DNA of 64,000 bases. It comes from Arthrobacter sp. YN. GTDB taxonomy: Bacteria > Actinomycetota > Actinomycetes > Actinomycetales > Micrococcaceae. The stretch is from positions 1,674,001 to 1,738,000 of the forward strand of contig NZ_CP022436.1 in the NCBI RefSeq assembly GCF_002224285.1. Reading direction: 5' to 3'. Shown here piece after piece: positions 7,718 to 26,721 of this stretch. The position numbers and the translations under genes were made by a program. Position 1 is the first letter of the stretch; each line of letters begins with the position of its first letter. The notes beneath the pieces are model-generated. The model was given only the letters and a program-made list of their open reading frames with translations, was not told where the DNA came from and searched no databases.

Positions 7718-7773
7718 CCTCAAACCAACAACGAACCAACGCGCCAAGACACAGAAGACCAGCAGGGGGAACC

Positions 7774-8826: not shown

Positions 8827-8852
8827 GAAACAGAAGAAGGAAATTGCACACC

Positions 8853-10037: not shown

Positions 10038-10047
10038 CCGCCCGCGG

Positions 10048-10986: not shown

Positions 10987-10995
10987 TAGCAAATC

Positions 10996-11039
10996 CTAAA
11001 TCGTTGATTGAGAAGAATCTAGTTGTGCTAAATCGTTGA
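10996..11039. promoter_or_regulatory. 12-bp direct repeats in the LysR/tdh divergent promoter
   Basis: CTAAATCGTTGA occurs exactly at 10996-11007 and again at 11028-11039, with the starts 32 bp apart (three helical turns). The pair lies between the divergent LysR and tdh starts and is a candidate LysR binding region. Confidence 0.55.
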
Positions 11040-11093
11040 CGGGGCTCTAATGGACTCAGCAGCAGCGAAGCAGCCCCAGCAGTGAGGAATCCC

Positions 11094-12140: not shown

Positions 12141-12194
12141 CTGGACCTGAACTGCACCCGGCACCCGGCCCCCTCAACTTTAGGAGCACCCCTT

Positions 12195-13388: not shown

Positions 13389-13499
13389 GGCCAAAGGTCT
13401 CTCACGTCCCACGGGCTTGCGGCCGATGCTCTCTCACGTCCCTCGGACTTGAGGCCGATGCTCTCTCACTTTCTTCACGACAGTGGGAGAGCATCGGCC
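13389..13499. repeat. 32-bp-periodic repeat array, left flank of the AAA ATPase, ending in a hairpin
   Basis: Three degenerate 32-bp units start at 13389, 13421 and 13453. Each contains TCTCTCAC at the same offset; units 2 and 3 share GGCCGATGCTCTCTCAC and units 1 and 2 share TCTCTCACGTCCC. The third core pairs with an inverted copy at 13483-13499 (GTGGGAGAGCATCGGCC) to make a 17-bp stem. It fills the whole space between the convergent kbl and AAA genes and may double as a bidirectional terminator. The same core, inverted, is found at 14281-14367. Confidence 0.8.
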
Positions 13500-14216
13500 C
13501 TATAGGTGCCGAAGGTATCTTTCCGGAGCGTCCAAGAATGAGCGCCAGTTGGTGATCAGGTCCAAGTCGGCCCATTGCCTGGGACGTAAGCCCCACTGCC
13601 CGACTTCAAGAATTTGGGCGCCCGGAAGGGCGGCCAGCAGGGGCGAGTGCGTAGACATAATGACTTGGGACTTGCCTCCAACCAACAGCTCCTTGAGAAC
13701 TGACAGCAGGCTGAGGCAGCCATTGAACGACAACGCTGATTCAGGCTCATCCAATACCCATAATCCGGGCCCGCGGAACCGGTCAACAGCGAGCTCAAGG
13801 AACGATTCGCCATGGGACATGTCGTGGAAGGGCAAGTCGCCGAACGTGCTGGGGTTCTTCTCCAGATAGGTGAAAAAACCATGCATGGTCTCAGCACGGA
13901 GGAAGTAACCACGCCTGCTGCTGCCGGCGTTGCGGATGAGTTGCAGGTGGTTGCCCAGTTCGGATTCCGTAGACCTTGTGGTGTGACGGGCTCCCGTTGA
14001 TCCGCCCTCCGGGGACAAACCGTAGGCCAAGGCGATGGCCTCCACCACTGTTGACTTACCAGAACCGTTTTCGCCCACGAGGATGGTTGCAGGAGGCAGA
14101 TCCAGACCTTGTTCCAGAAGCTGGGTTACCGGAGGCAAGCTGGCAGGCCACTGTTGGCGGTCCAGTGCGTTGGCGGGATCTTCTATCACCCGCTGAATGG
14201 GATGGTTGCGGTGCAT
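13500..14216 (-). CDS. Stand-alone AAA/ABC-type ATPase, unknown role
   Basis: A 238-residue soluble ATPase, complete by its motifs. Walker A is VGENGSGKST near residue 46, an ABC-like signature is MSHGESFLEL, Walker B is LWVLDEPESAL, and the H-loop is STHSPLLA. It has no membrane segments and no extra domain, like the small predicted ATPases of the COG3910 type. Such proteins occur alone or as parts of defence or toxin modules, but no partner gene lies beside it. It is bracketed by inverted arrays of 32-bp-periodic repeats, which suggests it may have moved as a unit. Start ATG at 14216; no strong Shine-Dalgarno is visible. Confidence 0.85.
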   Translation of the reverse strand: MHRNHPIQRVIEDPANALDRQQWPASLPPVTQLLEQGLDLPPATILVGENGSGKSTVVEAIALAYGLSPEGGSTGARHTTRSTESELGNHLQLIRNAGSSRRGYFLRAETMHGFFTYLEKNPSTFGDLPFHDMSHGESFLELAVDRFRGPGLWVLDEPESALSFNGCLSLLSVLKELLVGGKSQVIMSTHSPLLAALPGAQILEVGQWGLRPRQWADLDLITNWRSFLDAPERYLRHL

Positions 14217-14280
14217 GCCGTCATTGTTGCAGCCCCGGCAGACGTTGAGGCCGCAGGGACCCGCCGCGCATCACGAACGC

Positions 14281-14367
14281 GGGATGTGAGTGAGCGTTCG
14301 GCGGAAGGGCTTGGGATGTGAGAGAAGGTTTCGTTAAAGGGTGCGGGATGTGAGAGAGCATCGGTTC
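14281..14367. repeat. 32-bp-periodic repeat array, right flank of the AAA ATPase
   Basis: GGGATGTGAG starts at 14281, 14313 and 14345, exactly 32 bp apart. Each is followed by a related purine-rich stretch (TGAGCGTTCGG, AGAAGGTTTCG, AGAGCATCGG), then an unrelated ~11-bp spacer. The third copy, GTGAGAGAGCATCGG, is the exact reverse complement of the core in the left array. The array ends 15 bp before the oxidoreductase start at 14383, so it may also overlap that gene's promoter. Confidence 0.8.
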
Positions 14368-14382
14368 TGACAGGATGGAGCC

Positions 14383-15480
14383 ATGGCTTCGAATTATGAC
14401 GTGGTAATCGTAGGCGGTGGCATCGGGGGACTGTCCTTGGCGGCGGCTCTCGCGGGCAAGTGCACGGTTGCCCTTGTTGAGGCCGAGCAGTCCTTGGCCT
14501 TCCACACGTCGTCACGTTCGGCCCGGCAACTTATCCCCAGTTACGGTCCGGCAGTCGTGCAGGAGCTGACCATTCGAACCCTGGAAATGTTGGCGGCGCG
14601 CGATGCCCAGGCTGACGAACCCATCCTCACGCCACGCGGTTTCATGCTGGTAGGCGACGAAGAAACAGTCCACGCCGAGGCCAGCGGCAACATGCATGCC
14701 ATCACCCACGACGAAGCGATGCGACTTTGCCCGGTGCTCGACCCCGACTCATTTACAGCCGCAGGACTGGATAACGGCTCCTTCGGCTGCAACGCACCGC
14801 TCCTGCTTGAGGAACACCGCCGCACAGCGGAAGCTGCGGGCGTGGACATCATCACCGGAGCCAAGGTCCACTCCGCCCAACGATTGGGGAGCGGCTGGCA
14901 GGTGGGCGCGGGAACCGAAGGGTTCCAGTCCGGCGTCGTGGTTAACGCGGCAGGCGCGTGGGCGGACGAGCTGGCCGTCATCAGCGGGGTGGAGAAGCTG
15001 GGACTGCAGCCGTACCGACGGACGGCTGCCATCGTCAATGTTGATAGCCCCTTGACGCTGGAAACACCCATGGTGTGTGCCGCTGACGACACGTTCTATT
15101 TCCGCGCCGAGGGCAACCAGGTGCTGATTTCGCCGTCGGAATCCGTGCCGAGCGGGGCCGAGGACGCCAAGCCCTATGCAGGTGATGTGGAGGCCTTGAT
15201 CAGCAAACTCAACACCGTGACGTCCTTGGGAATCCATTCAGTGGACCGGGCGTGGACTGGCCTCCGGACAGAAGCTGCAGACGGGATTCCAGTGGTGGGG
15301 TTCGACGCGGAAGCACCGGGCTTCTTCTGGCTCGCAGGGCAAGGCGGCTACGGCTTCCAGACGTCGTCAGCCATCGCGGAGCTGGCCGCAGCACTCATCC
15401 TCGGCGACGTACAAGGCGACAGTCCGGAATCCCGGACAGCGGAGCAGTTGGCGGCCGTGCGTTGGTCCATCCGGCGCTGA
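14383..15480 (+). CDS. FAD-dependent oxidoreductase (glycine/D-amino acid oxidase family)
   Basis: A 365-residue DAO-type flavoprotein. The N-terminal dinucleotide fold VVIVGGGIGGLSLAAALAG (residues 6-24) binds FAD, VNAAGAWADELA is the family middle motif, and GFFWLAGQGGYGFQTSSAIAELAA is the C-terminal FAD contact. These enzymes oxidise amines such as D-amino acids, sarcosine or dimethylglycine; the substrate is not readable. AGGATGGAG precedes the ATG. hutI begins 11 nt after the stop, so the two are probably cotranscribed, which hints at amino-acid catabolism. Confidence 0.88.
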   Translation: MASNYDVVIVGGGIGGLSLAAALAGKCTVALVEAEQSLAFHTSSRSARQLIPSYGPAVVQELTIRTLEMLAARDAQADEPILTPRGFMLVGDEETVHAEASGNMHAITHDEAMRLCPVLDPDSFTAAGLDNGSFGCNAPLLLEEHRRTAEAAGVDIITGAKVHSAQRLGSGWQVGAGTEGFQSGVVVNAAGAWADELAVISGVEKLGLQPYRRTAAIVNVDSPLTLETPMVCAADDTFYFRAEGNQVLISPSESVPSGAEDAKPYAGDVEALISKLNTVTSLGIHSVDRAWTGLRTEAADGIPVVGFDAEAPGFFWLAGQGGYGFQTSSAIAELAAALILGDVQGDSPESRTAEQLAAVRWSIRR

Positions 15481-15491
15481 ACAATAGGGTC

Positions 15492-16730
15492 ATGAGCGGA
15501 ATCAGGAACGGGAACAGCGGCAGCACAGTCATCACCAACATCGGCGAACTGATGACCCAGGACCTTGAACACCGGGTCCTGAAGGACGCCGCGATGGTGA
15601 TCGAAGGAGAAAGGATTTCCTGGATCGGCGCTGCCAAAGACGCTCCGGCTGCCGACGCAATGGTCGACGCCGAAGGCCGCGCCGTCCTGCCGGGCTGGGT
15701 CGATTCACATTCCCATCTTGTTTTCGCAGGGGACCGCACTGCCGAGTTCGAAGCCCGCATGGCCGGGGAAAGCTACAGCGCAGGCGGGATCGCGGTCACC
15801 ACGGGTGCTACGCGCAGCGTCAGCGATGACGAACTCACCCGCCTCGTCCGGGATCGCGTGGCCGAGGCAGTCTCACAAGGGACCACGTACCTGGAGAGCA
15901 AGACCGGCTACGGGTTGGACGTCGAGAACGAGGCCCGCAGTGCCCGCATCGCCGCAGCCGAAGTGGACGAGGTCACCTTCCTGGGCGCGCACTTGGTCCC
16001 GAAGGGCTCCGATCCCGAGGAGTACACGGACCTGGTGTGTGGGCCCATGCTCGACGCCGTCCTCCCGCACGTTCGCTGGGCCGACGTCTTCTGCGAGCGG
16101 GGCGCGTTCACGGAGGACCAGTCCCGTCGGGTCCTGACTGCAGCGCGCGAGGCCGGTCTGGGCTTGAGGGTCCACGGGAACCAGTTGGGCGAGGGGCCAG
16201 GTGTTGCCCTGGCCGTAGAGTTCGCCGCAGCGAGTGTTGACCATGTCAACTACTTGTCGGACAAAAACATCCGGGACCTCGCGGGAACCTGGGCGGGCTG
16301 GGATCCGGCAACCGGAACGGGCACCAGGGGCACGGTGGCAACCTGCCTTCCCGCCTGTGACCTCTCCACCCGTCAGCCTCTGGCGCCAGGCCGTGAATTG
16401 ATCGACGCCGGCGTGCAGATCGCCCTGGCCGCCAACTGCAATCCGGGGACCTCGTACACCAGCTCCATGGCTTTCTGCGTCACCACTGCTGTGCTGCAAA
16501 TGCACTTGAGCGTCCACGAAGCCGTCCGGGCGGCAACGTACGGCGGCGCTTTGGCGTTGGGCCGGGAGTCAGGGAACGACGTCGACGGCGAACGGGCGGT
16601 GGGTTCGCTCGCCGTCGGACATCGGGCGGACCTGCACCTGCTCAAGGCACCGTCGGCCACGCACCTGGCTTACCGACCGGGGATCCCGTTGACTCATTCT
16701 GTGTGGCGGGCCGGGGTCCGGGCTGTCTAA
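15492..16730 (+). CDS. hutI: Imidazolonepropionase
   Basis: A 412-residue amidohydrolase that opens 4-imidazolone-5-propionate to N-formimino-L-glutamate in histidine degradation. The metal motif DSHSHLVFAGDR near residue 75, the substrate loop YLESKTGYGLD, and RVHGNQLGEG (metal histidine) are clear. At the position where most HutI proteins have an aspartate before NPGT, this one reads AANCNPGTS, so the usual metal ligand Asp appears as Asn. No other hut genes are nearby. The ATG at 15492 lies 11 nt after the preceding stop; a longer open frame upstream overlaps the oxidase gene and lacks homology. A terminator follows. Confidence 0.93.
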   Translation: MSGIRNGNSGSTVITNIGELMTQDLEHRVLKDAAMVIEGERISWIGAAKDAPAADAMVDAEGRAVLPGWVDSHSHLVFAGDRTAEFEARMAGESYSAGGIAVTTGATRSVSDDELTRLVRDRVAEAVSQGTTYLESKTGYGLDVENEARSARIAAAEVDEVTFLGAHLVPKGSDPEEYTDLVCGPMLDAVLPHVRWADVFCERGAFTEDQSRRVLTAAREAGLGLRVHGNQLGEGPGVALAVEFAAASVDHVNYLSDKNIRDLAGTWAGWDPATGTGTRGTVATCLPACDLSTRQPLAPGRELIDAGVQIALAANCNPGTSYTSSMAFCVTTAVLQMHLSVHEAVRAATYGGALALGRESGNDVDGERAVGSLAVGHRADLHLLKAPSATHLAYRPGIPLTHSVWRAGVRAV

Positions 16731-16738
16731 CAGAACAC

Positions 16739-16780
16739 AAAACAGGGGCAGTGTTCCGGTAGGAACACCGCCCCTGTTTG
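16739..16780. terminator. Bidirectional terminator between hutI and the GH101 gene
   Basis: AACAGGGGCAGTGTTCC pairs with GGAACACCGCCCCTGTT around a GGTA loop with one internal mismatch, flanked by A-rich and T-rich runs. It sits between the convergent stops at 16730 and 16796 and would work on both strands. Confidence 0.9.
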
Positions 16781-16795
16781 TGGGGGATGAAGGGA

Positions 16796-19700
16796 CTACG
16801 CGCAGCTGAACTTCGCGTCGGCCCAGTCGCCCCAGTCATCGCCGGCGTCGTCGCCGTTCTTGTCAGCGACCAGCTCGACGTTGCGGACACCGGTGATGTC
16901 CACGGTGAGGGGGAGCGCGGCGGAGTCGGCGCTCAGGACGGGGGTCCGCAACAGTTCGCGCCCATCGCCCTTGACAATAAACACCACGGAACCGTGCAGG
17001 CCCTTGTTCAGCTTCGCGTCGTCCACTCCCACCACGGCGGTGAAGGCGTTGCACTTGGCCTCCGTGGCGATGCTGATCTTGGAGTCGGCATGGACGCCGA
17101 TGCCCTTGGAGTACACGACGCCGTCCAGCCGCAGTGCGGGCCCGTCGCCGGCGTTCTGCTCACCGTTGGCCCGGTCCCGTTCTGCAGGTCCCCAACCGTT
17201 GGTGCTGCCGATCCAGGGCAGGTCGGAGGCGAACACGGTGCCCGACAGGACGGGTGCCGGCGGCTCCTGCGAGGTGGTGGAACAAGTGAATTTGGCGTCG
17301 GCCCAGTCCGCGTGGTCGTTGCCGTTGGAATCACCGGCATCGTTGGCCACCAGTTCCACGTACTGGGCACCGGTGACGTCCACCGTGAGTGGCAGGGGAG
17401 CGCTCGCAGCGCCCAGAACCGGTGTGGTCACCTTGGTGGTGCCATCGGCAACCACGGAGAACTTCACGCTTCCCCGCGTCGGTTGGGCGTCGTCGATGCC
17501 CACGGTCGCGGTGAAGGCGGTGCAGTAGCCGCCCAGGTAGTAGCGGACGGTACCGTTGGCGTGGGCTCCCAAGCCCTTGGCGTAAACAGTGCCGTTCAGC
17601 GTGAGCGGAGTGCCGTCACCGGCTCCGGTTCCACCATTGGACTGGTCCTTTTCCACTGGACCCCAGCCATTGGTGGCGCTGACCCACGGGTGGTCGCTGG
17701 CGAATACGGTGGCCTGCGGAGGCTTGGGCAGCGTCCGGACGGCCGTGGTGGTGCTGATGGTTCGGCTGCCTGCGGGCTGCGGGGTCGTGTTGTAGTTGGC
17801 CGTCGCCGTGATGGGGTAGTCGCCGTCAGCCGAAGCCGGCGCGGTGACCTTCCACGTGGTGGTCAAGGTGCCCCCGGCGGGCAGCGTCGAGGCCGTTGCG
17901 GGCGTGGATGGTGTTGCCGTCCACCCCTCGGGCAGTCCCAGCGACACGGTCAGATCATTGATGGCTGCCGGTTCGTCGGATACAAACGTGGTGACGAAGT
18001 CCTGGGCCTTGCCCTGCTGGACCACATCGCCCTGGAGCGCCGCCGAGAGCTGCGCGCAGGCCGGGACGGATTCGGACGCGCCGAGATCCTCCACCAGGAA
18101 GTTGTCCAGGGTGAAGTCCGAACCATCAGTACTGCCCGTGCGCTGCAGTCCCACAAAGTAGTCTCCGCAGAATCCGGTATCCAGGGTCTGCTCGAACCGT
18201 GTGGTTGACGTCGCGGCCTCGATCGCCTGGCTGCCCGTCACTGCGGGTCCGGCTTGGGAGTCGTAGCCGGAAACCCAGGCGTATTGGCCGTCCTTGGAGT
18301 TTTGGTAGTCGAAGGAAATCTTGTACTTGTGGCCCGCCTGGAACGGAACTGTGGCCTCCGTGGTCCGGTACACCATGCCCGGTCCGCCGTCGGGTGCGCG
18401 GTTTTCGTCGTGCGCGATCAGCGACCACGTTCCGTCCAGTACTTCGTCGATCACGTTGGTGTGCCAGCCCTTTTGGGTGAAGGGTTCGTTACGTTCGGTG
18501 ATGTGCGTGCGCGGGTCCGTGGAGCCGCCGGCATCGCCCTTCACGAAGGGTCCCCAGCCTTGGTCCACGTTTTCGAAGTCCTCGCTGAGCACGCCGGTGG
18601 TGGCCACCCTGGCGGTTTTCACCGCACGGAAGTCGTCGACGCGCACTGTTGCGTCGCCGTCGGCCGCTGTGACGGTGACCTTGGCCTTGGTGTTCTTGTG
18701 GGGAACGTCCACCAGGACGCGGATGCGCTGGAAGGCTGTCCCGTGTTTCTCGTCGCCGGCCACGAAATTCCCGGCGTTGGAAGAATCAATGGTGACGCTT
18801 TCGGTCTTGCCGCTGATGTCCACGGAGAGCGTGGTGGGACGGGTCTTGCCGGGCTGGATTTCCACCCAGGCGCTCACTGATTGGGTTCCGGCGTCCAGCT
18901 TCACTTCCTGGCTGATCGACGACGGCGTTGCCCCCAATTCGGCGAAGCGGCGGCCCTTGTCATCGCGGACCTGCGTGACGGTGCCGGCGGGGTTCCATGG
19001 GGAGAGGTCTGCGCCGTTGAAACCGGGATCGTTGAAGGCCGTCCCTGCGCCGAAGTTGGCCTTCTTCGGCAGCTCAGCCTTGTTGTTCTTCGGAGCCAGG
19101 ACATAGGGCTGTTTGGCGTCGGCCGTGACGGCGACCTGTCCGTTGACCACGGGCACGTCGGCGACCTTCACGCGGCCGTTGTCCGTCAGCTTGAAGAGCT
19201 CCAAGGAGCCGGCCTTGGCGAACTCCTTGGTGAGCGTCCACGTGGTGGCGCCACCGGCAGGGTTGTAGTGGTAGAGCTTGTCTGCCGTACCGTTTTCCTT
19301 GGAAGACCACGGGAGCAAGTAGGTTCCACCCTGCAGGACGGAGGTGCCGCCTACGGTGATATTGCGTTCTGCTGCCGTGTTTCCGGTGACGGAAACCCCA
19401 TCGGCGAGGTCGATCCGGTCTGCCGTCCACTTGGTGATCTGGTGGTGCTGCAGGAATTTCGCAGGCACGTTGGCCGTCCACACGTTCTCGCTGAACGCAT
19501 TGAAGTCGTTCTGCCCGGTCCAGCCTTCGAACTCCACAATATGGCTCACGCCAAGCTTTGGATCGGGGTTCCAGACGTCCGACTGGGTGTTGTTGATGAA
19601 ACGCAGGATCTGCGAGTTGATGCCCTTGTTGGTGGAGCCGCCGTACTTCTCATCGTTGGCCCAGTGGGACCAGGTGTTGTTCCGGGAGAGGTGGTCTGCC

Positions 19701-21202
19701 CATTCAGAGCCCACCCGGAAGCCGTTCTTGACCAGTTCCTGCTGCAGGCGCTCGGCGAGCCAGCCGAACTCGTAGTAGACGTCCACGTACACGAAGTCCA
19801 GGTTCTTGTCCGTGGCTTCGCGTAGTTCCTTGATGCGCTGGGCGAGCTTGCCGGAATTAATGTCCTCGCGCTGGTTCATGTAGTAGGACTGGTCCAGCCA
19901 GTTCCATCCCAGTCCCTTGTCCGCGCGCAACAGGTCCTCGCTGAAGGACTTGGCTTCCGGATAGATCTCCGTGGCATTGATGTGGACGCCGAAACCGGCA
20001 TTCCAGTCCTTGCCTTCCTTCACCAGCGTGTTGAGGTCCTCCAGACCGCCTGCACGGGTGTTGAAGTTGTTGCCGTAGTCCGTGTTGGCGGAGTCGTGCC
20101 CCTCGCTGGTGTAGCCCTTGAGCATGGCCACCTGCCCCAGTCCGTCGGTGGCCAGGGCGATGCGCTTGACGTCATCCAGGGTCCTCAGGAACGGGTGGGT
20201 TGCCTGCGAAGCAAAGTTGAACGGGATGTGCGTGATCACGTTGTCCGGCGTTTGCTCGGCCTTGTTGGGGTTGACCTGGATGGACCTCATGGCGACCGCC
20301 GCGTCCTGCCAGTCCACGCCGCCGTCGGCATTGGCATCGCTGGTGATGGCCACGCGGGTCCACGGAAGTTCCTCGGTGGTTGCGGAGCCTTCTGCGCGGT
20401 ACAGCCACTGGCCGCTGGCGATACCCATGGATACGCCGCCGGCTCCGTCGCTGACGGCTTGGCGCCAGAAGCGTCCGCGGTCCTTCGCGCCCGGGCCCGA
20501 CGACGTGTCGTACAGGGCATTGGACTCCACAGCGGCGCCCAAGGTGGCGGTATTTGCCAGTGCATAGGCGGAGCTCTTGGCGGTGGCGTCGAGGGGAGTC
20601 GCCGGGGTGATGGGCGTGAATTCGTCACCGCTGACACTGCGGTCCACGGACAGGTTGGCCGTCGAGACCTGCGCACCGGGCTGGGTGGATCCGACGGTCA
20701 CCAGGTTCAGCCGGGGGAGTTGCAAGGTTTTGACCTGGTGATCAGCGGAGTCCTTGATCTCCGTGACGTTGAAGGACACCACGTTTTTCTTAACCGAGAG
20801 CCGGGCTTTGATCACGGTGTTGCCGAAATCCGGAACGGTCAGCACGTACTCCCGGGCGTCGTTTCCGGACCCGGTGGAGGAACCGGTCACCGTATATTCC
20901 ACGCCATTGAGGGTGATGGTGCTGAGCCGGGTGACGGTACCGTCCAGGTGCGCCTTCGTGGCAGCGTCGGTGTAGCCGAGGACCTGCGGGAAGGTGGTGG
21001 AGACCTCCACGGCGAACTGGCCGGAGGTGATGACGGCAGCATCGATAGCACTGGCGATGTCTGCTTGCTGGGCGAACGGAGCGAAAGGGGAGGATGGGGC
21101 CGCGTTGGCAGGATGTACTGCCAGCAGGCCGAGTGAGGATGAGGCGACGACGCAGGCCAAACTCAGCGATGCGAGGCGTCTGGGGGATGACAAGCCGGGC
21201 AT
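16796..21202 (-). CDS. Secreted endo-alpha-N-acetylgalactosaminidase (GH101) with NPCBM modules
   Basis: A 1468-residue exported glycosidase. GH101 enzymes release the core-1 disaccharide Gal-beta-1,3-GalNAc from Ser/Thr of mucin-type glycoproteins. The start at 21202 has AAGGAG six bases upstream; signal peptide residues 1-35 (LASLSLACVVASSSLG then ANAAP). The catalytic part holds DANADGGVDWQDAA near residue 289, the likely nucleophile in DFVYVDVYYEFGW near 470, and the likely acid/base in GSEWADHLS near 497. After beta-rich modules come a NEW3-like domain (about 1071-1147) and two NPCBM-type carbohydrate-binding domains (about 1162-1307 and 1321-1467), each with FASD.PW, NGWGP and ADWADAKF-like motifs. 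No LPXTG or membrane anchor, so it should be free. Divergent from the agaS-like operon. Confidence 0.93.
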   Translation of the reverse strand: MPGLSSPRRLASLSLACVVASSSLGLLAVHPANAAPSSPFAPFAQQADIASAIDAAVITSGQFAVEVSTTFPQVLGYTDAATKAHLDGTVTRLSTITLNGVEYTVTGSSTGSGNDAREYVLTVPDFGNTVIKARLSVKKNVVSFNVTEIKDSADHQVKTLQLPRLNLVTVGSTQPGAQVSTANLSVDRSVSGDEFTPITPATPLDATAKSSAYALANTATLGAAVESNALYDTSSGPGAKDRGRFWRQAVSDGAGGVSMGIASGQWLYRAEGSATTEELPWTRVAITSDANADGGVDWQDAAVAMRSIQVNPNKAEQTPDNVITHIPFNFASQATHPFLRTLDDVKRIALATDGLGQVAMLKGYTSEGHDSANTDYGNNFNTRAGGLEDLNTLVKEGKDWNAGFGVHINATEIYPEAKSFSEDLLRADKGLGWNWLDQSYYMNQREDINSGKLAQRIKELREATDKNLDFVYVDVYYEFGWLAERLQQELVKNGFRVGSEWADHLSRNNTWSHWANDEKYGGSTNKGINSQILRFINNTQSDVWNPDPKLGVSHIVEFEGWTGQNDFNAFSENVWTANVPAKFLQHHQITKWTADRIDLADGVSVTGNTAAERNITVGGTSVLQGGTYLLPWSSKENGTADKLYHYNPAGGATTWTLTKEFAKAGSLELFKLTDNGRVKVADVPVVNGQVAVTADAKQPYVLAPKNNKAELPKKANFGAGTAFNDPGFNGADLSPWNPAGTVTQVRDDKGRRFAELGATPSSISQEVKLDAGTQSVSAWVEIQPGKTRPTTLSVDISGKTESVTIDSSNAGNFVAGDEKHGTAFQRIRVLVDVPHKNTKAKVTVTAADGDATVRVDDFRAVKTARVATTGVLSEDFENVDQGWGPFVKGDAGGSTDPRTHITERNEPFTQKGWHTNVIDEVLDGTWSLIAHDENRAPDGGPGMVYRTTEATVPFQAGHKYKISFDYQNSKDGQYAWVSGYDSQAGPAVTGSQAIEAATSTTRFEQTLDTGFCGDYFVGLQRTGSTDGSDFTLDNFLVEDLGASESVPACAQLSAALQGDVVQQGKAQDFVTTFVSDEPAAINDLTVSLGLPEGWTATPSTPATASTLPAGGTLTTTWKVTAPASADGDYPITATANYNTTPQPAGSRTISTTTAVRTLPKPPQATVFASDHPWVSATNGWGPVEKDQSNGGTGAGDGTPLTLNGTVYAKGLGAHANGTVRYYLGGYCTAFTATVGIDDAQPTRGSVKFSVVADGTTKVTTPVLGAASAPLPLTVDVTGAQYVELVANDAGDSNGNDHADWADAKFTCSTTSQEPPAPVLSGTVFASDLPWIGSTNGWGPAERDRANGEQNAGDGPALRLDGVVYSKGIGVHADSKISIATEAKCNAFTAVVGVDDAKLNKGLHGSVVFIVKGDGRELLRTPVLSADSAALPLTVDITGVRNVELVADKNGDDAGDDWGDWADAKFSCA

Positions 21203-21280
21203 TATGCTCCTTCTTGATTTTTCCAAGCGAATAACGATCATGTTCTTGCGGACTGTCTAAGACTGCTGCACAGGACAGAA

Positions 21281-21307
21281 GTTGACAAGAGTTAACAAGC
21301 AGTTAAC
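21281..21307. promoter_or_regulatory. Triple GTTRAC repeat upstream of GH101
   Basis: GTTGACAAGA, GTTAACAAGC and GTTAAC start at 21281, 21291 and 21302, that is, 10-11 bp apart on one helical face, 80-105 bp upstream of the GH101 start. GTTAAC also forms the half-sites of the palindrome before the sugar transporter (3915-3928). Candidate regulator site; no direct proof. Confidence 0.4.
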
Positions 21308-21402
21308 TTAAATGCACATCCCGGCACACGCTTACCGCGGTCCGACGGCCATTCCCGCTGTGTGCGGTTAATGAGCAGACTTCCCCCGCGGATGATCCTT
21401 GT

Positions 21403-21455
21403 GAGATCGAAAATGATCGTTTAGTGTTTCTATAGATCAGAAAACGTCATTAAGC
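21403..21455. promoter_or_regulatory. Candidate operator/promoter region of the agaS-like operon
   Basis: The 274-bp region between the divergent GH101 and agaS-like genes contains two related A-rich blocks, GATCGAAAATGATCG near 21406 and GATCAGAAAACGTCATTA near 21435, about 30 bp apart. They lie 25-70 bp before the agaS-like start and would suit the DeoR-family regulator at the end of the operon. The pairing with that regulator is inference. Confidence 0.4.
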
Positions 21456-21476
21456 TGAGCGGGAGCGGAACACACG

Positions 21477-22394
21477 ATGAGCGAGAACACACTGGGCGCC
21501 TTCATGGAGGAAGAGCTGGTTTCCCAGCCCGACGTATGGCAGCGGGCTGTAGAGCAAGCCCGTGCCGAGGACTTGCTTCCGGCTGACGGAAAGCGCATCG
21601 CCGTGATCGGTTGCGGGACCTCCTGGTTCATGGCGCAGAGCTACGCGGCCGCCCGCGAATCCGCCGGGAAGGGCGTCACCGATGCCTTCGCCGCGTCCGA
21701 AGCTTTCCTTAACAGCAACAGCGCCGATCGCCAGTACGACGCCGTTGTGGCCATTACGCGGTCAGGAACCACCACTGAGGTACTTGAGATCCTGGCTGAG
21801 CTTCAGGGGATCGTCCCCACCGTGGCAATCATCGGCGACACCACCTCCCCGATCATCGAACTGGCAGATGCCGTGATCGGACTGCAGTACGCCGATGAGC
21901 GTTCGGTAGTTCAGACCCGTTTTGCGACCACAGCGCTGGTCTACCTGCTGACCAGCCTTGACATCGATGTGCAGCAGGCCATCGATGATGCCCGCGACGC
22001 TGTGAGCGCGCGGGTTCCGCAGGAACTCCTGGATGCCGAGCAGTTCACCTTCCTCGGCACTGGATGGACGGTTGGGCTGGCCCACGAGGCAGGCCTGAAA
22101 ATGCGCGAGGCTGTACAGGGATGGACCGAGTCCTATCCCGCCATGGAGTACCGGCATGGGCCCATCTCCATCGCGGCTCCGGGCCGCGTCACCTGGTTGT
22201 TCGGTGCCCAGCCTGAAGGGCTGGACGCCGACATGGCCGTCACCGGCGCCCTCTACATCCATACCGACAAGCACCCGTTGGCTGAGCTGGCCAGGGTTCA
22301 CAAGGTCACCTTGGAGCGTGCGCGCGTCCGTGGACTGAATCCCGATCTGCCCCGCAACCTGACGCGCTCCGTCATTCTCAACGCCTCCGCCTAG
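21477..22394 (+). CDS. SIS-domain sugar-phosphate isomerase/deaminase (AgaS/GlmS-C-like)
   Basis: A 305-residue protein with two SIS folds. Motifs are VIGCGTSWFMAQSYA near residue 44 (phosphosugar loop), ITRSGTTTEVLE near 97, FLGTGWTVGLAHEAGLKMREA near 190, and MEYRHGPIS near 224. In GalNAc pathways the AgaS enzyme turns galactosamine-6-phosphate into tagatose-6-phosphate and ammonia. At 305 residues it is shorter than the ~380-residue AgaS of enterobacteria and lacks an obvious glutaminase domain, so it is not a full GlmS. It leads an operon with ROK and PfkB kinases, an aldolase and a DeoR regulator. The AgaS role is inferred from this context. Confidence 0.82.
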   Translation: MSENTLGAFMEEELVSQPDVWQRAVEQARAEDLLPADGKRIAVIGCGTSWFMAQSYAAARESAGKGVTDAFAASEAFLNSNSADRQYDAVVAITRSGTTTEVLEILAELQGIVPTVAIIGDTTSPIIELADAVIGLQYADERSVVQTRFATTALVYLLTSLDIDVQQAIDDARDAVSARVPQELLDAEQFTFLGTGWTVGLAHEAGLKMREAVQGWTESYPAMEYRHGPISIAAPGRVTWLFGAQPEGLDADMAVTGALYIHTDKHPLAELARVHKVTLERARVRGLNPDLPRNLTRSVILNASA

Positions 22395-22403
22395 GCACCC
22401 GTC

Positions 22404-23327
22404 ATGGTTCTCGGAGCCGCAGAATCACCGGTCCTCTCCTTCGACGTTGGCGGGACTGACATCAAAGCCGGCTTGGTGGATGCCAGGGGAAACGTCCTGG
22501 GCATGCGCCGCGTCCCTACGCCATTGGATCCTGCTCGCCCCGGCGAAGCGATCCTGGACAGGCTGGCCGAGCTTAAAATCGAACTGTCGACCGAATTCCC
22601 GGAGGCCACCGCCAAAGCGGCCGGCATCATCGTCCCGGGCATCGTGGACTCCGTGGCCGGCATCGGTGTCTATTCGGCCAACCTCGGCTGGCGTAATTTC
22701 CCGTTCACGGCCGAAGCCGAAAAGCGGCTGGGGATTCCGGTGGCGTTTGATCATGATGTCCGGTCCGCTGCGGCCGTAGAACACACCTTTGGTGGGTCCA
22801 AAGAGTTCAAGGACGTTGTGGTGATGGTGGTGGGGACCGGCATCGCCGCAGCCGTTTTCTCCGGTGGCAAGGCGGTCACCGCTGGCGGCTTCGCCGGTGA
22901 GCTCGGCCATGCCCAGGTCCCGGACCCCGACGCCGGACCTGGCTCCACGGGCTCCACCATCCTGGAAGCAGTCGGTTCGGCCGGTGCCATCGCCAAGCGC
23001 TACTACAAGGCGTCCGGGAACAGGGTGAACGGTGCCCGCGGTGTCCTGCTCAGGGCCGAAGGCGGCGACGAACTGGCCGCACGCATCTGGGCCGATGCCG
23101 TGGATGCCCTCGCCTTCACCATCTGCCAGTGCGTCAACATCATAGGAACCGAAGCGGTGGTGATCGGCGGCGGCCTGGCTGAAGCCGGCGACGAACTGCT
23201 GGAGCCCCTCCGGACCAAGGTGGACGGCATCCTTGACTTCCAGCGACGCCCACAGCTGATCCGGGCCGAACTGGGGCAAGACGCCGGCCTTTTGGGTGCG
23301 GCTTTGAACGCACGGGCACTCCTGTGA
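22404..23327 (+). CDS. ROK-family sugar kinase lacking the usual zinc-binding cysteines
   Basis: A 307-residue ROK kinase with the phosphate-1 motif LSFDVGGTDIKAGLVD, the catalytic-region VAFDHDVRSAAAVEH, and GTGIAAAVFSGGK. The position following GELGH normally carries the CxCGxxGCxE zinc motif, but here reads AQVPDPDAGPGSTGSTILE without any cysteine; the metal histidine of GELGH is kept. Probable role: phosphorylation of N-acetylgalactosamine or a related hexose(amine) at C6, feeding the SIS isomerase. It starts 9 nt after the isomerase gene and its stop overlaps the next start by 4 nt (GTGA). Confidence 0.85.
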   Translation: MVLGAAESPVLSFDVGGTDIKAGLVDARGNVLGMRRVPTPLDPARPGEAILDRLAELKIELSTEFPEATAKAAGIIVPGIVDSVAGIGVYSANLGWRNFPFTAEAEKRLGIPVAFDHDVRSAAAVEHTFGGSKEFKDVVVMVVGTGIAAAVFSGGKAVTAGGFAGELGHAQVPDPDAGPGSTGSTILEAVGSAGAIAKRYYKASGNRVNGARGVLLRAEGGDELAARIWADAVDALAFTICQCVNIIGTEAVVIGGGLAEAGDELLEPLRTKVDGILDFQRRPQLIRAELGQDAGLLGAALNARALL

Positions 23328-24304
23328 GCAGCACAATGAAGCGAGCCAACGTGAACCGCATCATCACCGTCACCGCCAATCCGGCCATCGACATGACCTA
23401 TACCGTGCAGGGAATCACCGAGGGCGCCAGCCACCGTGTACCCACTCCTTTGAGCCGGGCCGGCGGCAAGGGCATCAACGTTGCCCGTGTGACCCACCAA
23501 CTGGGCTACCCTGTCCTGGCCATCGCACCCACCGGAGGCGCCGCAGGGCAGACCCTCGCAGCTGAGCTCTGGACCAGCGGCGTTCCCCACGCCCTGGTGG
23601 GAGTCGCCGCCGAGACCCGCCGCAGCATCGCCTTGGTGGACACCGTCGCCGGCGAAACGTCCATCTTCAACGAGGAGGGCCAGGCACTCCTGCCGGACGA
23701 CTGGCGCGCACTCCGGATTGCGGTGGTTGAGGCCGTCAGCGGAAACCGAAACCTCCCGGCCTCCGTCCTGGTCGGTTCGGGAAGCCTGCCGCCGGGTGCT
23801 CCAGCAGATTTCTATCCGGAGCTGGTGCGCCTGGCCCACGACGCCGGTATCCCGGCCATCATCGATACCTCCGGTCCCGGAATCATCGCCGCAGCCAAAG
23901 CGGGCGCGGACATCCTCAAACCGAATCATCACGAGTTGGCCGAAGCGACCGGGGAATCCAGCCTGGAAGCAGCCGCCCTCGCCCTGATCGACATGGGTGC
24001 CCGAACGGTACTGGTCAGTGCCGGGGCAGACGGCATGCTCGCCTTCGATCATGCCGCTCCCGGCGGCTACTGGAGCGCGCGCCTGCCTGAAGCGCTGAGG
24101 GGCAACCCCACAGGGGCGGGCGACGCCGGTGTGGCGGCTGCCGCCGTCGCACTCGCCGAAGGCATCACGGAACCGCGCGAAATACTCCGCCGGGCCACCG
24201 CGTGGTCCGCCGCTGCCGTGCTCATGCCGGCCGCCGGCGAAATTTCACCGCGGTACCAGGAACTTCAAGACCAACTGATCGTGACATGGAAGGAGACCCG
24301 GTGA
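23324..24304 (+). CDS. PfkB-family phosphosugar kinase (tagatose-6-P / fructose-1-P kinase type)
   Basis: A 326-residue ribokinase-superfamily enzyme resembling LacC/FruK. The N-terminus ITVTANPAIDMTYTV is typical of phosphosugar kinases, GGKGINVARVTHQLGYPV is the substrate-binding signature, and NPTGAGDAGVAA near residue 265 holds the catalytic Asp. In this operon it would phosphorylate tagatose-6-phosphate to tagatose-1,6-bisphosphate. The start is given as GTG at 23324, which overlaps the ROK stop (GTGA); ATG at 23336 is an alternative. It ends with the same 4-nt overlap into the aldolase gene, indicating translational coupling. Confidence 0.87.
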   Translation: MSSTMKRANVNRIITVTANPAIDMTYTVQGITEGASHRVPTPLSRAGGKGINVARVTHQLGYPVLAIAPTGGAAGQTLAAELWTSGVPHALVGVAAETRRSIALVDTVAGETSIFNEEGQALLPDDWRALRIAVVEAVSGNRNLPASVLVGSGSLPPGAPADFYPELVRLAHDAGIPAIIDTSGPGIIAAAKAGADILKPNHHELAEATGESSLEAAALALIDMGARTVLVSAGADGMLAFDHAAPGGYWSARLPEALRGNPTGAGDAGVAAAAVALAEGITEPREILRRATAWSAAAVLMPAAGEISPRYQELQDQLIVTWKETR

Positions 24305-25140
24305 CCCTGGTCAACACACGGGAACTCATGGACAGGGCCGCGGCTTCCGGCGCAGGCCAAGGTGCGTTCAACATCATTCATATCGAAACAGCCGAGGGCC
24401 TGGTGGCCGGAGCCGAAGCGGCAGGTGTTCCGTTGATCCTGCAGATCTCCGAGAACTGCGCCAAGTACCACGGTGGGCTCGAACCGATTGCGTCAGCCGC
24501 CCTGGCGATCGCCCGCTCCGCCGCCGTCCCGGTCGCCCTGCACCTGGACCATGCGGAGTCCGAGGACCTCGCTCTGGCTGCGGTCGACCTTGGGTTCGGC
24601 TCGGTCATGTACGACGGCGCACATCTGCCCTACGAGTGGAACGTCGAAGTCACCCAACGTGTCGCCGCCTACGCCCACCAGCGCGGCGTTTACGTCGAGG
24701 CCGAGCTCGGCAAAGTGGGGGGCAAAGACGGTGCCCATGCCCCGGGCGTCCGGACCGACCCCGCCGAGGCCCAGGCTTTCGTTGAGGCCACCGGTGTGGA
24801 CGCGCTCGCTGTGGCTGTTGGTTCCTCCCACGCCATGACCGAACGAAGCGCCGCACTGGACCTCCACCTGATCACCCGCCTGAAGTCCGCGGTCGGAAAA
24901 CCGTTGGTCCTTCACGGCTCCTCAGGCGTCACAGATGAGATGCTCGTAGCCGCTATCGGCGCGGGTATGACTAAAATCAACGTATCCACACATTTGAACG
25001 GGTTCTTTACCCGCGCCGTCCGTGAGTACCTCGATGCCAACCCTGCAGTGGTGGATTCCCGGAAGTACCTCAAGGCCGGCCGGGATGCCCTTGTGCTGGA
25101 GTCCGCACGTATGCTGACGCTGTTCGCCAAAGCGAAATAG
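24301..25140 (+). CDS. Class II aldolase, GatY/KbaY type (tagatose-bisphosphate aldolase)
   Basis: A 279-residue zinc-dependent aldolase. Visible are VALHLDHAES (zinc His and catalytic Asp), EAELGKVGGKDG (zinc-side Glu and phosphate loop), VGSSHAM (zinc His region; family consensus usually GTxHG), LHGSSGVTDEML and TKINVSTHLN. It should cleave tagatose-1,6-bisphosphate (or fructose-1,6-bisphosphate) to dihydroxyacetone phosphate and glyceraldehyde-3-phosphate. The GTG start has AAGGAG seven bases upstream and overlaps the PfkB stop; an in-frame ATG at 24286 overlaps that Shine-Dalgarno. Tagatose specificity is inferred from the operon. Confidence 0.87.
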   Translation: MTLVNTRELMDRAAASGAGQGAFNIIHIETAEGLVAGAEAAGVPLILQISENCAKYHGGLEPIASAALAIARSAAVPVALHLDHAESEDLALAAVDLGFGSVMYDGAHLPYEWNVEVTQRVAAYAHQRGVYVEAELGKVGGKDGAHAPGVRTDPAEAQAFVEATGVDALAVAVGSSHAMTERSAALDLHLITRLKSAVGKPLVLHGSSGVTDEMLVAAIGAGMTKINVSTHLNGFFTRAVREYLDANPAVVDSRKYLKAGRDALVLESARMLTLFAKAK

Positions 25141-25164
25141 CTCCGAACCCGCGAAAGGCTCGTC

Positions 25165-25956
25165 ATGACGCGCACCGATCGGCTGACCGCCATCCTCGAT
25201 CTCCTGGCCGAGTCCGGCCATGTGGAAGTCGAGGACATCGTGACGCGTCTGGGCGTGTCACCAGCCACGGCCCGTCGAGACCTCGACAGCCTCGCCAAGC
25301 AAAGGTTGCTCAGCCGGACCAGGGGTGGCGCCACCACCGGATCGGTGGCCTATGACCTCCCGGGCCGCTACAACCGTGACGACCACGCCCAGGCCAAGCA
25401 GGACATTGCCCAGGCCGCGTCCGCGCTGATCCGACCCGGGGCCGTGATTGGCCTCAGCGGCGGCACCACCAACACCGCGCTGGCCCAGTTGCTCTCCACC
25501 CGTGAAGACCTCAACGCCCCGTCCAACAGGCCCACGCTGACGGTGGTGACCAACGCCATCAACATTGCCTCGCAACTGGCGGTCCGGCCCAACATCAAGA
25601 TCATGGTCACCGGCGGCATCCTGAATCCACGCTCCTACGAGCTCGTGGGCCCCTACACGGACGTGATCATGCAGAAAGTTGCTTTGGACATTGCGTTTAT
25701 CGGCGTCAATGGTGTTGACCCGGACCTCGGTCCCACCATCACCGACGAAGGCGAAGCCATGGTCAACACCGTGATGGCACGGCGCGCCACGGAGTCCTAC
25801 GTGGTGGCTGACTCCTCCAAAGTGGGCCGCCGCTCCTTCGCTGCCATGGCGGGTTACGACTTCAGGCACCTCATCACCGATGCCGGAATCAGCGCCGAGG
25901 ACAAGGCCGCCTTCGAAGCCAAGGGCACGGAAGTCATCGTCGCATCCGCCGGCTAG
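25165..25956 (+). CDS. DeoR-family transcriptional regulator
   Basis: A 263-residue DeoR regulator with an N-terminal HTH (VEVEDIVTRLGVSPATARRDLDSL, about residues 14-37) followed by the characteristic RTRGGA turn. A phosphosugar-sensing domain follows with VIGLSGGTTNTAL, VTGGILNPRSYELVGP and VADSSKVGRRSFAAM. It is the last gene of the GalNAc-type operon, 24 nt after the aldolase gene, with GCGAAAGGCTCGTC before the ATG. It probably represses the operon and is released by a phosphorylated intermediate. Its 3' end overlaps the convergent phosphatase gene by 23 bp. Confidence 0.92.
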   Translation: MTRTDRLTAILDLLAESGHVEVEDIVTRLGVSPATARRDLDSLAKQRLLSRTRGGATTGSVAYDLPGRYNRDDHAQAKQDIAQAASALIRPGAVIGLSGGTTNTALAQLLSTREDLNAPSNRPTLTVVTNAINIASQLAVRPNIKIMVTGGILNPRSYELVGPYTDVIMQKVALDIAFIGVNGVDPDLGPTITDEGEAMVNTVMARRATESYVVADSSKVGRRSFAAMAGYDFRHLITDAGISAEDKAAFEAKGTEVIVASAG

Positions 25957-26671
25957 CACCGGCGAGCTGGGTGCGCCGCCTGAACCGCATTCTGGGCGCG
26001 TGCAGCACCGAATCGTCAACATCCCTGGGCACCCACTGGCTGAACGGTGAATCGAGGCTGTACTGGCCGTCGTCGTTCATCATCAGTGTGCGCAACTCAG
26101 CGTTGTCCGGGTTGTTGAGGGATTCGAAGTACTCAACCGTCCAATGGAACCAGCGCATGCAGAACAGGCGCATGGTCAGTCCGTGCGTCACCAGGAGAGC
26201 GTTCGGCGCATACGTGGGCTTTTGCCAGTGGCGGTAGAGCGTCTCCATGAAGGACGACACGCGGTCGTACACATCCGAACCGGATTCACCCTCGCGGAAC
26301 CGGTAGAAGAAGTGGCCGTAGAGGTTGCGGAGCTCCTTTTGGTCCTCGATCTCCCCGGCAATCTGGAAGTTGGCCCAGTCCTGCTCACGAAGCCTGGGTT
26401 CCTCAATGACCCGTTCTATCAACGAGCCCAGATTCAATGCCTCCAAGGTCTGGTACGCCCTCAGATACGGTGAAACGTAGACGCAGACCTGTTGCCCGTC
26501 GAGCTTGCGGCGAAGGTCTTCACCGGCAATGCGGGCTTGCTCCACGCCGAGTTCCGTGAGGGGGATCCGGTAGTCCGGCACACGGTTGTAGATGGACGTG
26601 TCGGCGTTCGCGGCGGACTGGCCGTGCCGGATCATGAAAATTCTCGCTGGGGCACCCATCCCACCAAGCAT
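25934..26671 (-). CDS. Histidine phosphatase (phosphoglycerate mutase) family protein
   Basis: A 245-residue branch-1 histidine phosphatase. The phospho-histidine motif is FMIRHGQSAANADTS near residue 14, and a second histidine lies in LLVTHGLTMRLFC. The extended C-terminal part (FHWTVEYFESLNNPDNAEL) is typical of actinobacterial and fungal homologues of unknown substrate. ATG at 26671 is used; ATG at 26659 is equally possible because neither has a strong ribosome-binding site. The 3' end lies antisense to the last 23 bp of the DeoR gene. Only 50 bp separate it from the divergent CPBP gene. Confidence 0.88.
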   Translation of the reverse strand: MLGGMGAPARIFMIRHGQSAANADTSIYNRVPDYRIPLTELGVEQARIAGEDLRRKLDGQQVCVYVSPYLRAYQTLEALNLGSLIERVIEEPRLREQDWANFQIAGEIEDQKELRNLYGHFFYRFREGESGSDVYDRVSSFMETLYRHWQKPTYAPNALLVTHGLTMRLFCMRWFHWTVEYFESLNNPDNAELRTLMMNDDGQYSLDSPFSQWVPRDVDDSVLHAPRMRFRRRTQLAGASRRMRR

Positions 26672-26721
26672 AGGTGCGTGGTTCCCGGCATAGTGGCAGG
26701 AACTGCGGGCAAGATAGGTAC

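Follow-up and report, generated by a model that had tools for sequence, protein, structure and literature searches.

In Arthrobacter sp. YN, a gene for an endo-α-N-acetylgalactosaminidase of family GH101 and a divergent five-gene operon appear to form a module for the utilization of mucin-type (core 1) O-glycans, an interpretation to which we assign a probability of roughly 0.8. It draws on features that we observed directly: the genes and their domains, the aligned active-site residues, a conserved operon, the pairing of that operon with GH101, and partner genes in related loci and in this genome. The pathway for N-acetylgalactosamine (GalNAc) that we propose would be coupled to GH101 and built from partly non-orthologous enzymes. 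It would represent a testable route by which soil-type actinobacteria feed on animal mucin-type glycoproteins, a trait discussed mostly for gut bacteria. A search of titles and abstracts, with subscription papers outside its reach, revealed no description of a GH101-linked GalNAc operon in Micrococcaceae.

All six genes lie where a sequence-only reading of the 64-kb window (the whole stretch of DNA that was analyzed) had placed them. The GH101 gene occupies positions 16796..21241 on the minus strand and is divergent from an operon at 21477-25956 on the plus strand, which consists of genes for a SIS-domain protein (21477..22394; PF01380, 52.6 bits), a ROK-family kinase (22404..23327), a PfkB-family kinase (23324..24304), a class II (zinc) ketose-bisphosphate aldolase (24301..25140) and an AgaR-like regulator of the DeoR family (25165..25956; PF00455 and PF08220). 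The last four genes had been described as tightly joined, which is correct but too narrow, as all five are closely spaced: 9 nt separate the SIS and ROK genes, the next two junctions are 4-nt overlaps, and 24 nt separate the aldolase gene from that of the regulator. The start that we assign to the aldolase, a GTG at 24301 with AAGGAG upstream, is the one that overlaps the PfkB stop codon by 4 nt; the automatic open reading frame call had used an upstream GTG at 24202. The divergent promoter region (21242..21476) has a GC content of 0.50, as compared with 0.63 for the window. Directly past the GH101 stop codon is a terminator-like hairpin of 18 pairs (16740..16779, minus strand), a pattern match only, which suggests that GH101 is transcribed alone.

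As judged from its domains and from alignment of its catalytic acids, the 1481-aa product of the 16796-21241 gene is a GH101 endo-α-N-acetylgalactosaminidase. The catalytic domain, PF12905, was matched at 400.8 bits (Pfam cut-off, 25), and Pfam also assigned PF18080 (Gal_mutarotas_3), PF17451 (101C), PF17974 (GalBD_like), PF10633 (NEW3) and, in two stretches, PF08305 (NPCBM), with NEW3 and the two NPCBM domains at the C-terminus. Solved structures that it matches are 6qfo (459.8 bits), a fusion of EngBF, the enzyme of the same family from Bifidobacterium, and 3ecq (427.1 bits). Both catalytic acids are kept: D487 (codon at 19781..19783, minus strand) aligns with the nucleophile Asp of EngBF, which we take to be D789, and E513 (codon at 19703..19705, minus strand) aligns with its acid/base Glu, which we take to be E822. 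The N-terminus resembles a signal peptide by eye, and the enzyme is probably secreted; its predicted activity is the release of Gal-β-1,3-GalNAc from Ser/Thr.

The pairing of GH101 with the operon exceeds chance and recurs across the bacterial family, and can thus be regarded as a genuine trait and not a peculiarity of one strain. Among 345 family genomes, GH101 was found in 39 and an orthologue of the SIS gene in 94, and every one of the 39 GH101 genomes contained the SIS orthologue. The two genes were divergent in 31 of the 39, with 1.1-6.2 kb between domain matches, whereas in the remaining eight the SIS gene was 24-655 kb away or on another contig. To examine the operon itself we assembled 53 SIS loci, this window included, which comprise 52 distinct SIS sequences and 26 groups at 90% identity. 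(One record is present twice, as L071 and L149, both of which are counted, and locus L080, labelled 'Sporosarcina' and resembling Arthrobacter DNA, was kept.) Two loci were dropped as too short; in all 51 that had at least 4.5 kb downstream, ROK, PfkB and aldolase genes were found on the SIS strand within 12 kb. These counts, made by tblastn, reflect strand and distance and not gene order (picking genes by length and GC3 mis-called some, for example at L112 and L141). As the loci share a common descent, they do not count as independent events. Mucin-type glycan use had been called unexpected in a soil actinobacterium, a view that does not hold up: GH101 is present in 8 of 32 sampled genera of the family and in other actinobacteria, and Streptomyces genomes carrying it are already on record in the accessible text of PMC9120202.

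As 55 of the 94 genomes with the SIS gene lack GH101, the operon must also serve other sources and does not by itself mark an O-glycan locus. We see an even chance that it is a general operon for galactosamine or GalNAc from other sources, such as cell-wall or fungal galactosamine polymers or sulfated GalNAc glycans, and that GH101, added in some lineages, merely widens the diet. Such a role is favored by genome G137 (locus L111), in which hutI and the SIS gene are immediate neighbors with no GH101 in between, and by locus L127, in which sulfatase genes, ABC importer genes and the gene of a GH20-like enzyme accompany the operon. The divergent arrangement of GH101 and SIS genes within 6.2 kb, here and in 30 other GH101 genomes, argues instead for joint use. 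This explanation, however, mostly complements that of an O-glycan module and opposes it little.

The O-glycan module, supported by the co-occurrence and recurring divergent layout of its genes, is further supported by the presence of missing steps near related loci. In a Pseudarthrobacter metagenome-assembled genome (L077), a stretch of about 17 kb encompasses ABC importer genes, a GH35 gene, an aldolase-PfkB-ROK-SIS group, GH101, a DeoR gene, a sulfatase gene and a gene for a NagA-type deacetylase (212.6 bits, slightly below the cut-off of 225.65). Locus L140 (genome G158) carries a GH112 gene, which scores 885.8 bits with TIGR02336, along with GH101, ABC importer genes and a DeoR gene, its SIS operon being on another contig, and L138 combines GH101, ABC importer genes and a GH35 gene, with the SIS gene 81 kb away. 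A NagA-type gene is located no more than 12 kb from the SIS gene in 5 of the 53 loci (L077, L128, L130, L137 and L139). At L141 the operon adjoins a gene for a GH31 protein with an NPCBM domain, which had been falsely marked as GH101 in the locus count.

The deacetylase and the enzyme that splits the disaccharide had been expected elsewhere in the genome, and for nagA and a BgaC-like GH35 gene this proved to be the case. A single NagA-family gene exceeds the cut-off (C1:3281704; 226.5 bits against 225.65). There are three GH35 genes, among them one at C1:3543427; one of the three is 63% identical to that of L077, and the best solved relatives of its product are 4mad, 8h25 and 4e8c (370.7 bits for the last, which is presumably BgaC). 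A search of this genome for GH112 gave no match, the positive control, G158, scoring 602.2 bits. A sialidase gene is present. The importer that adjoins the operon in other genera appears to have no orthologue in this genome, as the solute-binding protein of L122, used as query, gave 19 matches, all of them weak (the best 29% identical, E 1.3e-19).

In the pathway that we propose, secreted GH101 would cut Gal-β-1,3-GalNAc from the Ser/Thr residues of glycoproteins. Either this disaccharide or its component sugars would be imported by a putative transporter, and the BgaC-like GH35 β-galactosidase, encoded elsewhere, would split the disaccharide. The ROK protein, a putative GalNAc 6-kinase, would then phosphorylate GalNAc at C6, and the sole NagA-family deacetylase past the cut-off, also encoded elsewhere, would deacetylate the product. 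The SIS protein, a putative galactosamine-6-phosphate deaminase/isomerase, would convert galactosamine-6-phosphate by deamination and isomerization to tagatose-6-phosphate, which the PfkB protein, a putative tagatose-6-phosphate kinase, would phosphorylate. Finally, the class II aldolase, a putative tagatose-1,6-bisphosphate aldolase, would cleave the PfkB product to triose phosphates. That the hexosamine isomerase is accompanied by a kinase and an aldolase of its own agrees better with a route through tagatose phosphates than with one through fructose phosphates. We infer the substrate specificities, the route of import and the inducer.

The kinases, isomerase, aldolase and regulator all fall below every substrate-specific equivalog cut-off. 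The ROK protein is a sugar kinase of its family (PF00480, 168.5 bits) with no DNA-binding domain listed in Pfam; the CxCGxxGC motif, which is typical of ROK proteins, is absent from it and is carried by 13 of 53 orthologues. The PfkB protein belongs to the 1-PFK subfamily (TIGR03168, 237.6 bits, cut-off 216.4), and its best solved relative is 2awd (117.3 bits), named a tagatose-6-phosphate kinase, but it scored 111.6 bits with the LacC model TIGR01231 (cut-off 409.55). Likewise, the aldolase (PF01116, 282.1 bits) passed the wider model TIGR00167 (218.4 bits, cut-off 215.6) and fell short of the GatY/KbaY model TIGR01858 (207.8 bits, cut-off 443.55), and the regulator, a member of the DeoR family, fell short of the AgaR model NF040755 (150.6 bits, cut-off 260). 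The SIS protein, for its part, scored 19.8 bits with the AgaS model TIGR02815 (cut-off 529.2). The enzyme names given in the sequence-only reading were therefore too strong, and the specificities that we propose for all five proteins are based on gene context.

By family cut-off the SIS protein is not AgaS, and it resembles instead the isomerase domain of GlmS (24% identity over 358 columns with the E. coli domain, E 1e-15), although it is a protein of 305 aa without a glutaminase domain. All 53 sequences, of which 52 are distinct, have E211, H227 and R297. In E. coli GlmS the aligned residues are E488, H504 and K603, such that the Schiff-base Lys603 is replaced by Arg. A bolder proposal, which we hold tentatively and at slightly less than even odds, is that this protein is the first member of a new family of galactosamine-6-phosphate deaminases/isomerases, not orthologous to the known ones, in which the Glu and His of GlmS are kept and the Lys has given way to an invariant Arg. 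Together with a ROK GalNAc kinase it would constitute a PTS-free GalNAc pathway, present in roughly one in four of the Micrococcaceae sampled, and GH101, inserted at one conserved spot, would have turned soil bacteria into O-glycan scavengers. The SIS protein, in which Arg stands where GlmS has Lys, is a recurring candidate for a non-AgaS galactosamine-6-phosphate isomerase that now goes under the labels 'FrlB-like' or 'SIS domain', and its correct labelling would make GalNAc use predictable in genomes in which the AgaS model gives no match.

The likeness to GlmS raises the alternative, which we consider improbable, of an operon for glucosamine (GlcNAc) in which the SIS protein is a glucosamine-6-phosphate deaminase of the GlmD/NagB-II type. 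Its best-scoring models are indeed GlmS (84.4 bits) and GlmD (NF041128, 77.5 bits), and the PfkB and aldolase proteins could use fructose phosphates. Both scores, however, are far below the cut-offs (381 and 580, respectively), a GlmD/NagB-II-type model (NF046059) gave 48 bits (cut-off 430), and a separate nagB gene over cut-off is present at C1:3270904. Moreover, from what is known of the pathway, fructose-6-phosphate would make a kinase and aldolase of the operon's own superfluous, and the linkage to GH101, together with GH112 or BgaC-like GH35 in relatives, points to GalNAc. Still less probable is a fructosamine (Amadori) deglycase operon, suggested by database names of close SIS homologues such as 'fructoselysine-6-P-deglycase FrlB-like' and by 24% identity with E. 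coli FrlB over 243 columns (E 7e-6). We rejected it, as the GlmS domain is the better match, the PfkB protein scored 23.1 bits with the model for the fructoselysine 6-kinase FrlD (cut-off 247), and the FrlB route, which yields glucose-6-phosphate, needs no aldolase. Least credible of all is degradation of sulfoquinovose, which likewise employs an isomerase together with a kinase and an aldolase for ketose phosphates. In the accessible text of PMC9594981, it is carried out by Arthrobacter spp. through a variant of sulfo-EMP with YihS/YihV/YihT orthologues, sulfo-EMP2 having a PF01116 aldolase, the PF02952 isomerase SqvD and a PF00365 kinase; the operon encodes PF01380, PF00480, PF00294 and PF01116 proteins, without PF02952 or PF00365, and we rejected the pathway on these families.

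The proposed O-glycan module can be compared with several known systems. Its proposed reaction sequence is that of the E. coli aga/kba operon for GalNAc and galactosamine (agaR, kbaZ, agaS, kbaY and agaI), with which it shares a DeoR-family repressor (31% identity with AgaR) and a class II aldolase (37% identity with KbaY over 268 columns). Unlike the E. coli cluster, it has a ROK kinase in place of PTS genes, the GlmS-like SIS protein in place of AgaS (25% identity over 267 columns), a PfkB kinase gene, a link to GH101 and no KbaZ-type gene. Bifidobacterium uses the GNB/LNB phosphorylase (GH112), which is found near GH101 in the family member L140, whereas for this genome, which lacks a GH112 match, we propose GH35 and an Aga-type pathway. 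In Streptococcus pneumoniae, SpGH101 and BgaC combine an endo-α-N-acetylgalactosaminidase with an intracellular β-1,3-galactosidase, a logic like that proposed here. The GH101 enzyme described here nonetheless differs in architecture (493.9 bits with model NF040533, cut-off 2900) and has no wall anchor, by eye, and the operon has no PTS gene. In the polysaccharide utilization locus BT4240-50 of B. theta, a GalNAc kinase shares a locus with mucin-O-glycan-processing enzymes, as proposed here, but the organization is different, and B. theta has no annotated GH101, as stated in the accessible text of PMC11992087.

Finally, we examined the divergent promoter region for sites of regulation. A simple scan found no σ70-type site within 16600-26700. 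A motif built from 29 of 52 upstream sequences (30 were picked for diversity, one of which was absent) identified a candidate DeoR operator at 21403..21422 (minus strand), with tandem CGATCA-type half-sites 10 bp apart. The motif scored 634.6, as compared with 363-384 in 10 shuffled sets, a comparison in which shuffling ignores common descent; the sites of 7 of the 29 sequences (L117, L128, L129, L141, L145, L147 and L148), several of them weak, were excluded from the operator model. A genome-wide scan with the 22-position model R1, in which 150 of 631 candidates were scored, had as its sole match at E ≤ 10 the operon's own site at 21403..21422 (E 1.72), and thus gave no indication of common control of nagA, GH35 or an importer. 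A hand-made pattern gave three scattered matches on nine other stretches of the genome. A second candidate operator, inverted with respect to the first, was read by eye at 21433..21452 (plus strand). Repression of the operon by the DeoR protein that it encodes, acting at tandem candidate sites in the divergent promoter, is probable.

The GH101 gene and the five-gene operon divergent from it (window 21477-25956, forward strand) are closely associated across the family. Among 345 genomes of the same family (32 genera), GH101 was found in 39 (8 genera) and an orthologue of the operon's SIS gene (E ≤ 1e-40) in 94 (16 genera). All 39 GH101 genomes carry SIS, and GH101 occurs in none of the 251 family genomes without SIS (Fisher p 8e-26, for genomes that are not independent of one another); likewise, all eight GH101 genera fall within the 16 SIS genera (p about 0.001 by hand calculation). 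The two genes are divergent in 31 of the 39, with domain matches 1.1-6.2 kb apart (the widest spacing, in genome G143, has other genes in between); in six they share a contig at a distance of 24-655 kb, and in two they lie on separate contigs. GH101 is absent from 55 of the 94 SIS genomes. We consider it likely (a probability of about 0.8) that the whole is a GH101-coupled module for O-glycan and GalNAc utilization, in which secreted GH101 would free Gal-β-1,3-GalNAc and the operon would catabolize GalNAc via tagatose phosphates.

The GH101 gene (16796-21241, reverse strand) encodes a 1481-residue protein that matches PF12905 at 400.8 bits and, in a profile search, contains Gal_mutarotas_3, 101C, GalBD_like, NEW3, and two stretches of NPCBM domains. 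It aligns with the EngBF fusion 6qfo (459.8 bits) and with structure 3ecq (427.1 bits), which we take to be S. pneumoniae SpGH101. In the EngBF alignment, D487 and E513 coincide with the GH101 nucleophile and acid/base, respectively; their spacing is 26 residues as against 33 (counted by hand) in EngBF, so that the D487-E513 stretch is 7 residues shorter in the window protein. The N-terminus resembles a signal peptide by eye, and a terminator-like hairpin (pattern match) directly follows the stop codon. The sequence-only reading had regarded mucin-type glycan use as unexpected in a soil actinobacterium, but this view is not supported: Streptomyces genomes with GH101, from strains that the paper terms commensal, appear in PMC9120202, and we found GH101 loci from Streptomyces, Nonomuraea, Kribbella, and Agromyces. 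GH101 in actinobacteria outside gut groups was already known.

A 235-bp intergenic gap (50% GC) separates GH101 from the operon, whose genes follow in the order SIS, ROK, PfkB, class II aldolase, and DeoR. The first junction is a gap of 9 nt and the last one of 24 nt; at the two in between, the genes overlap by 4 nt. The aldolase start is at 24301, versus 24202 in the automated ORF call. The 3′ end of the DeoR gene overlaps that of a convergent histidine-phosphatase gene by 23 nt (25934-25956). Among 53 SIS loci including the window (52 distinct SIS sequences, 26 groups at 90% identity), two were too short and were left out; in all 51 with enough downstream sequence, SIS, ROK, PfkB, and aldolase matches lie on the same strand within 12 kb. 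SIS is 88-99% identical to 120 homologues among the matches listed, and those that are named are mostly from Paenarthrobacter or Arthrobacter; on this basis we assign the window to the family Micrococcaceae. Near the operon in 20 fetched GH101-less loci are hutI (13 loci) and tdh with kbl (8 loci), and thus the operon often sits at the window's chromosomal spot; in one genome (G137) hutI adjoins SIS with no GH101 in between. A locus recorded as Sporosarcina beigongshangi REN13 matches Arthrobacter loci in gene order, SIS (77%), and TDH (84%); the database entry could carry a wrong name or contaminating DNA.

Related loci contain enzymes for steps missing from the window. In a Pseudarthrobacter MAG (locus L077), about 17 kb holds ABC importer genes, GH35, aldolase-PfkB-ROK-SIS, GH101, DeoR, a sulfatase, and a NagA-type deacetylase. 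Locus L140 has a single run (7031-18881) of GH101, ABC importer genes, a DeoR gene, and the galacto-N-biose phosphorylase GH112 (TIGR02336, 885.8 bits; cut-off 560.3). This run is a phosphorolytic form of the trait, like that of Bifidobacterium; the SIS homologue of that genome (G158; 55%) is on another contig. L138 combines GH101 with ABC importer genes and GH35, and L142 combines GH35 with GH101. In L141 the operon is directly followed by a GH31 protein that also carries NEW3 and NPCBM domains (14346-18215), a candidate α-GalNAcase; family GH31 has a reported member with such an activity (PMC11992087). Five of the 53 loci have a NagA-type gene no more than 12 kb from SIS. In a comparison of 17 solute-binding proteins, nine operon-linked ones from six genera form one group (57-97% pairwise identity), which the remaining eight do not resemble. 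Among the sugars considered, GalNAc-containing glycans fit these neighbours best. The SIS operon of L127 (5030-17944) is flanked by two sulfatase-like genes (the second assigned by Pfam), after which come ABC importer genes and then a GH20-like enzyme; this is probably a sulfated GalNAc glycan version. A DUF5107 protein (L108, 6742-8691, assigned by Pfam; L096, 7908-9920) adjoins GH101 and ABC importer genes, an arrangement common to Amycolatopsis and Catelliglobosispora.

The strain's own genome is one contig of 5.06 Mb (C1), of which the window is bases 1674001-1738000. The deacetylase and a disaccharide-splitting enzyme had been predicted to lie elsewhere. The candidate for the first is a single NagA-family gene (C1:3281704), which exceeds its cut-off narrowly (226.5 versus 225.65 bits), and a separate nagB is at C1:3270904. 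For the second, the candidate is a BgaC-like GH35; GH112 had no match in the genome by a search that was positive in the control G158. One of three GH35 genes (C1:3543427) is 63% identical to that of L077; the solved structures that match it best are 4mad, 8h25, and 4e8c, which represent the β-1,3-galactosidases BgaC and L. casei LBCZ_0230. Titles of papers on both are in the reference list of PMC11739564. A sialidase gene lies at C1:697490 (nearest 1eut, 401.4 bits). A search of the genome found no orthologue of the operon-linked importer (best match 29% identity). On paper, the route thus lacks nothing but a named importer. A large subtilase gene follows the sialidase gene (L183 7485-13638, within C1:690000-705000); sialidase, subtilase, and GH101 could jointly strip and digest sialylated glycoproteins. 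Arthrobacter ureafaciens sialidase serves as a reagent in PMC11992087. A separate cluster (L181 3928-11228, within C1:4396000-4415900) combines a sulfatase, ABC importer genes, and a ROK kinase with a deaminase of NagB type that is 34% identical to E. coli AgaI; it perhaps encodes a sulfated amino-sugar pathway. A GH42 match split over two frames (L163 9438-10540; C1:1269437-1270539) may be a frameshifted gene.

Family cut-offs do not settle the specificity of the operon enzymes. PfkB exceeds that for the 1-PFK subfamily only and the aldolase that for TIGR00167 only; the aldolase is 37% identical to KbaY, with the zinc and catalytic residues aligned, and DeoR is AgaR-like, yet under the AgaR cut-off. 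SIS falls below the cut-offs for AgaS (19.8 versus 529.2), GlmD (77.5 versus 580), and NagB-II (48 versus 430). Its nearest relative is the isomerase domain of GlmS (24% over 358 columns, E 1e-15), with weaker matches to AgaS (E 1e-6) and FrlB (E 7e-6). The GlmS active-site residues E488, H504, and K603, the last being the Schiff-base lysine, correspond in the alignment to E211, H227, and R297, each invariant in 53 of 53 SIS sequences. Loss of the lysine with retention of the Glu/His pair would fit an enzyme that does not run GlmS synthesis, and we infer that SIS deaminates galactosamine-6-phosphate. More tentatively, and with slightly more doubt than belief, we propose that SIS represents a new, non-orthologous galactosamine-6-phosphate deaminase/isomerase family within a PTS-free GalNAc pathway into which GH101 is plugged. 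AgaS-type GalNAc pathways are well described (PMC5583593); among papers judged by title or abstract, none describes a GH101-linked, ROK-containing GalNAc operon without AgaS.

Finally, an EM search of 29 SIS upstream sequences, picked for diversity from 52, revealed a tandem repeat of C(G/A)(A/T)TCA half-sites about 10 bp apart. Its score was 634.6 versus 363-384 in ten shuffled sets, which ignore common descent; the 29 sites include several weak ones, and the later model excludes seven of the 29. In the window, the repeat is a candidate operator at 21403-21422, and an inverted copy at 21433-21452 is a second. Searched against the own genome at E ≤ 10 (150 of 631 candidates scored), the operator model matched the operon's own site alone (E 1.72), so that a modest reading would be local autoregulation of the operon.
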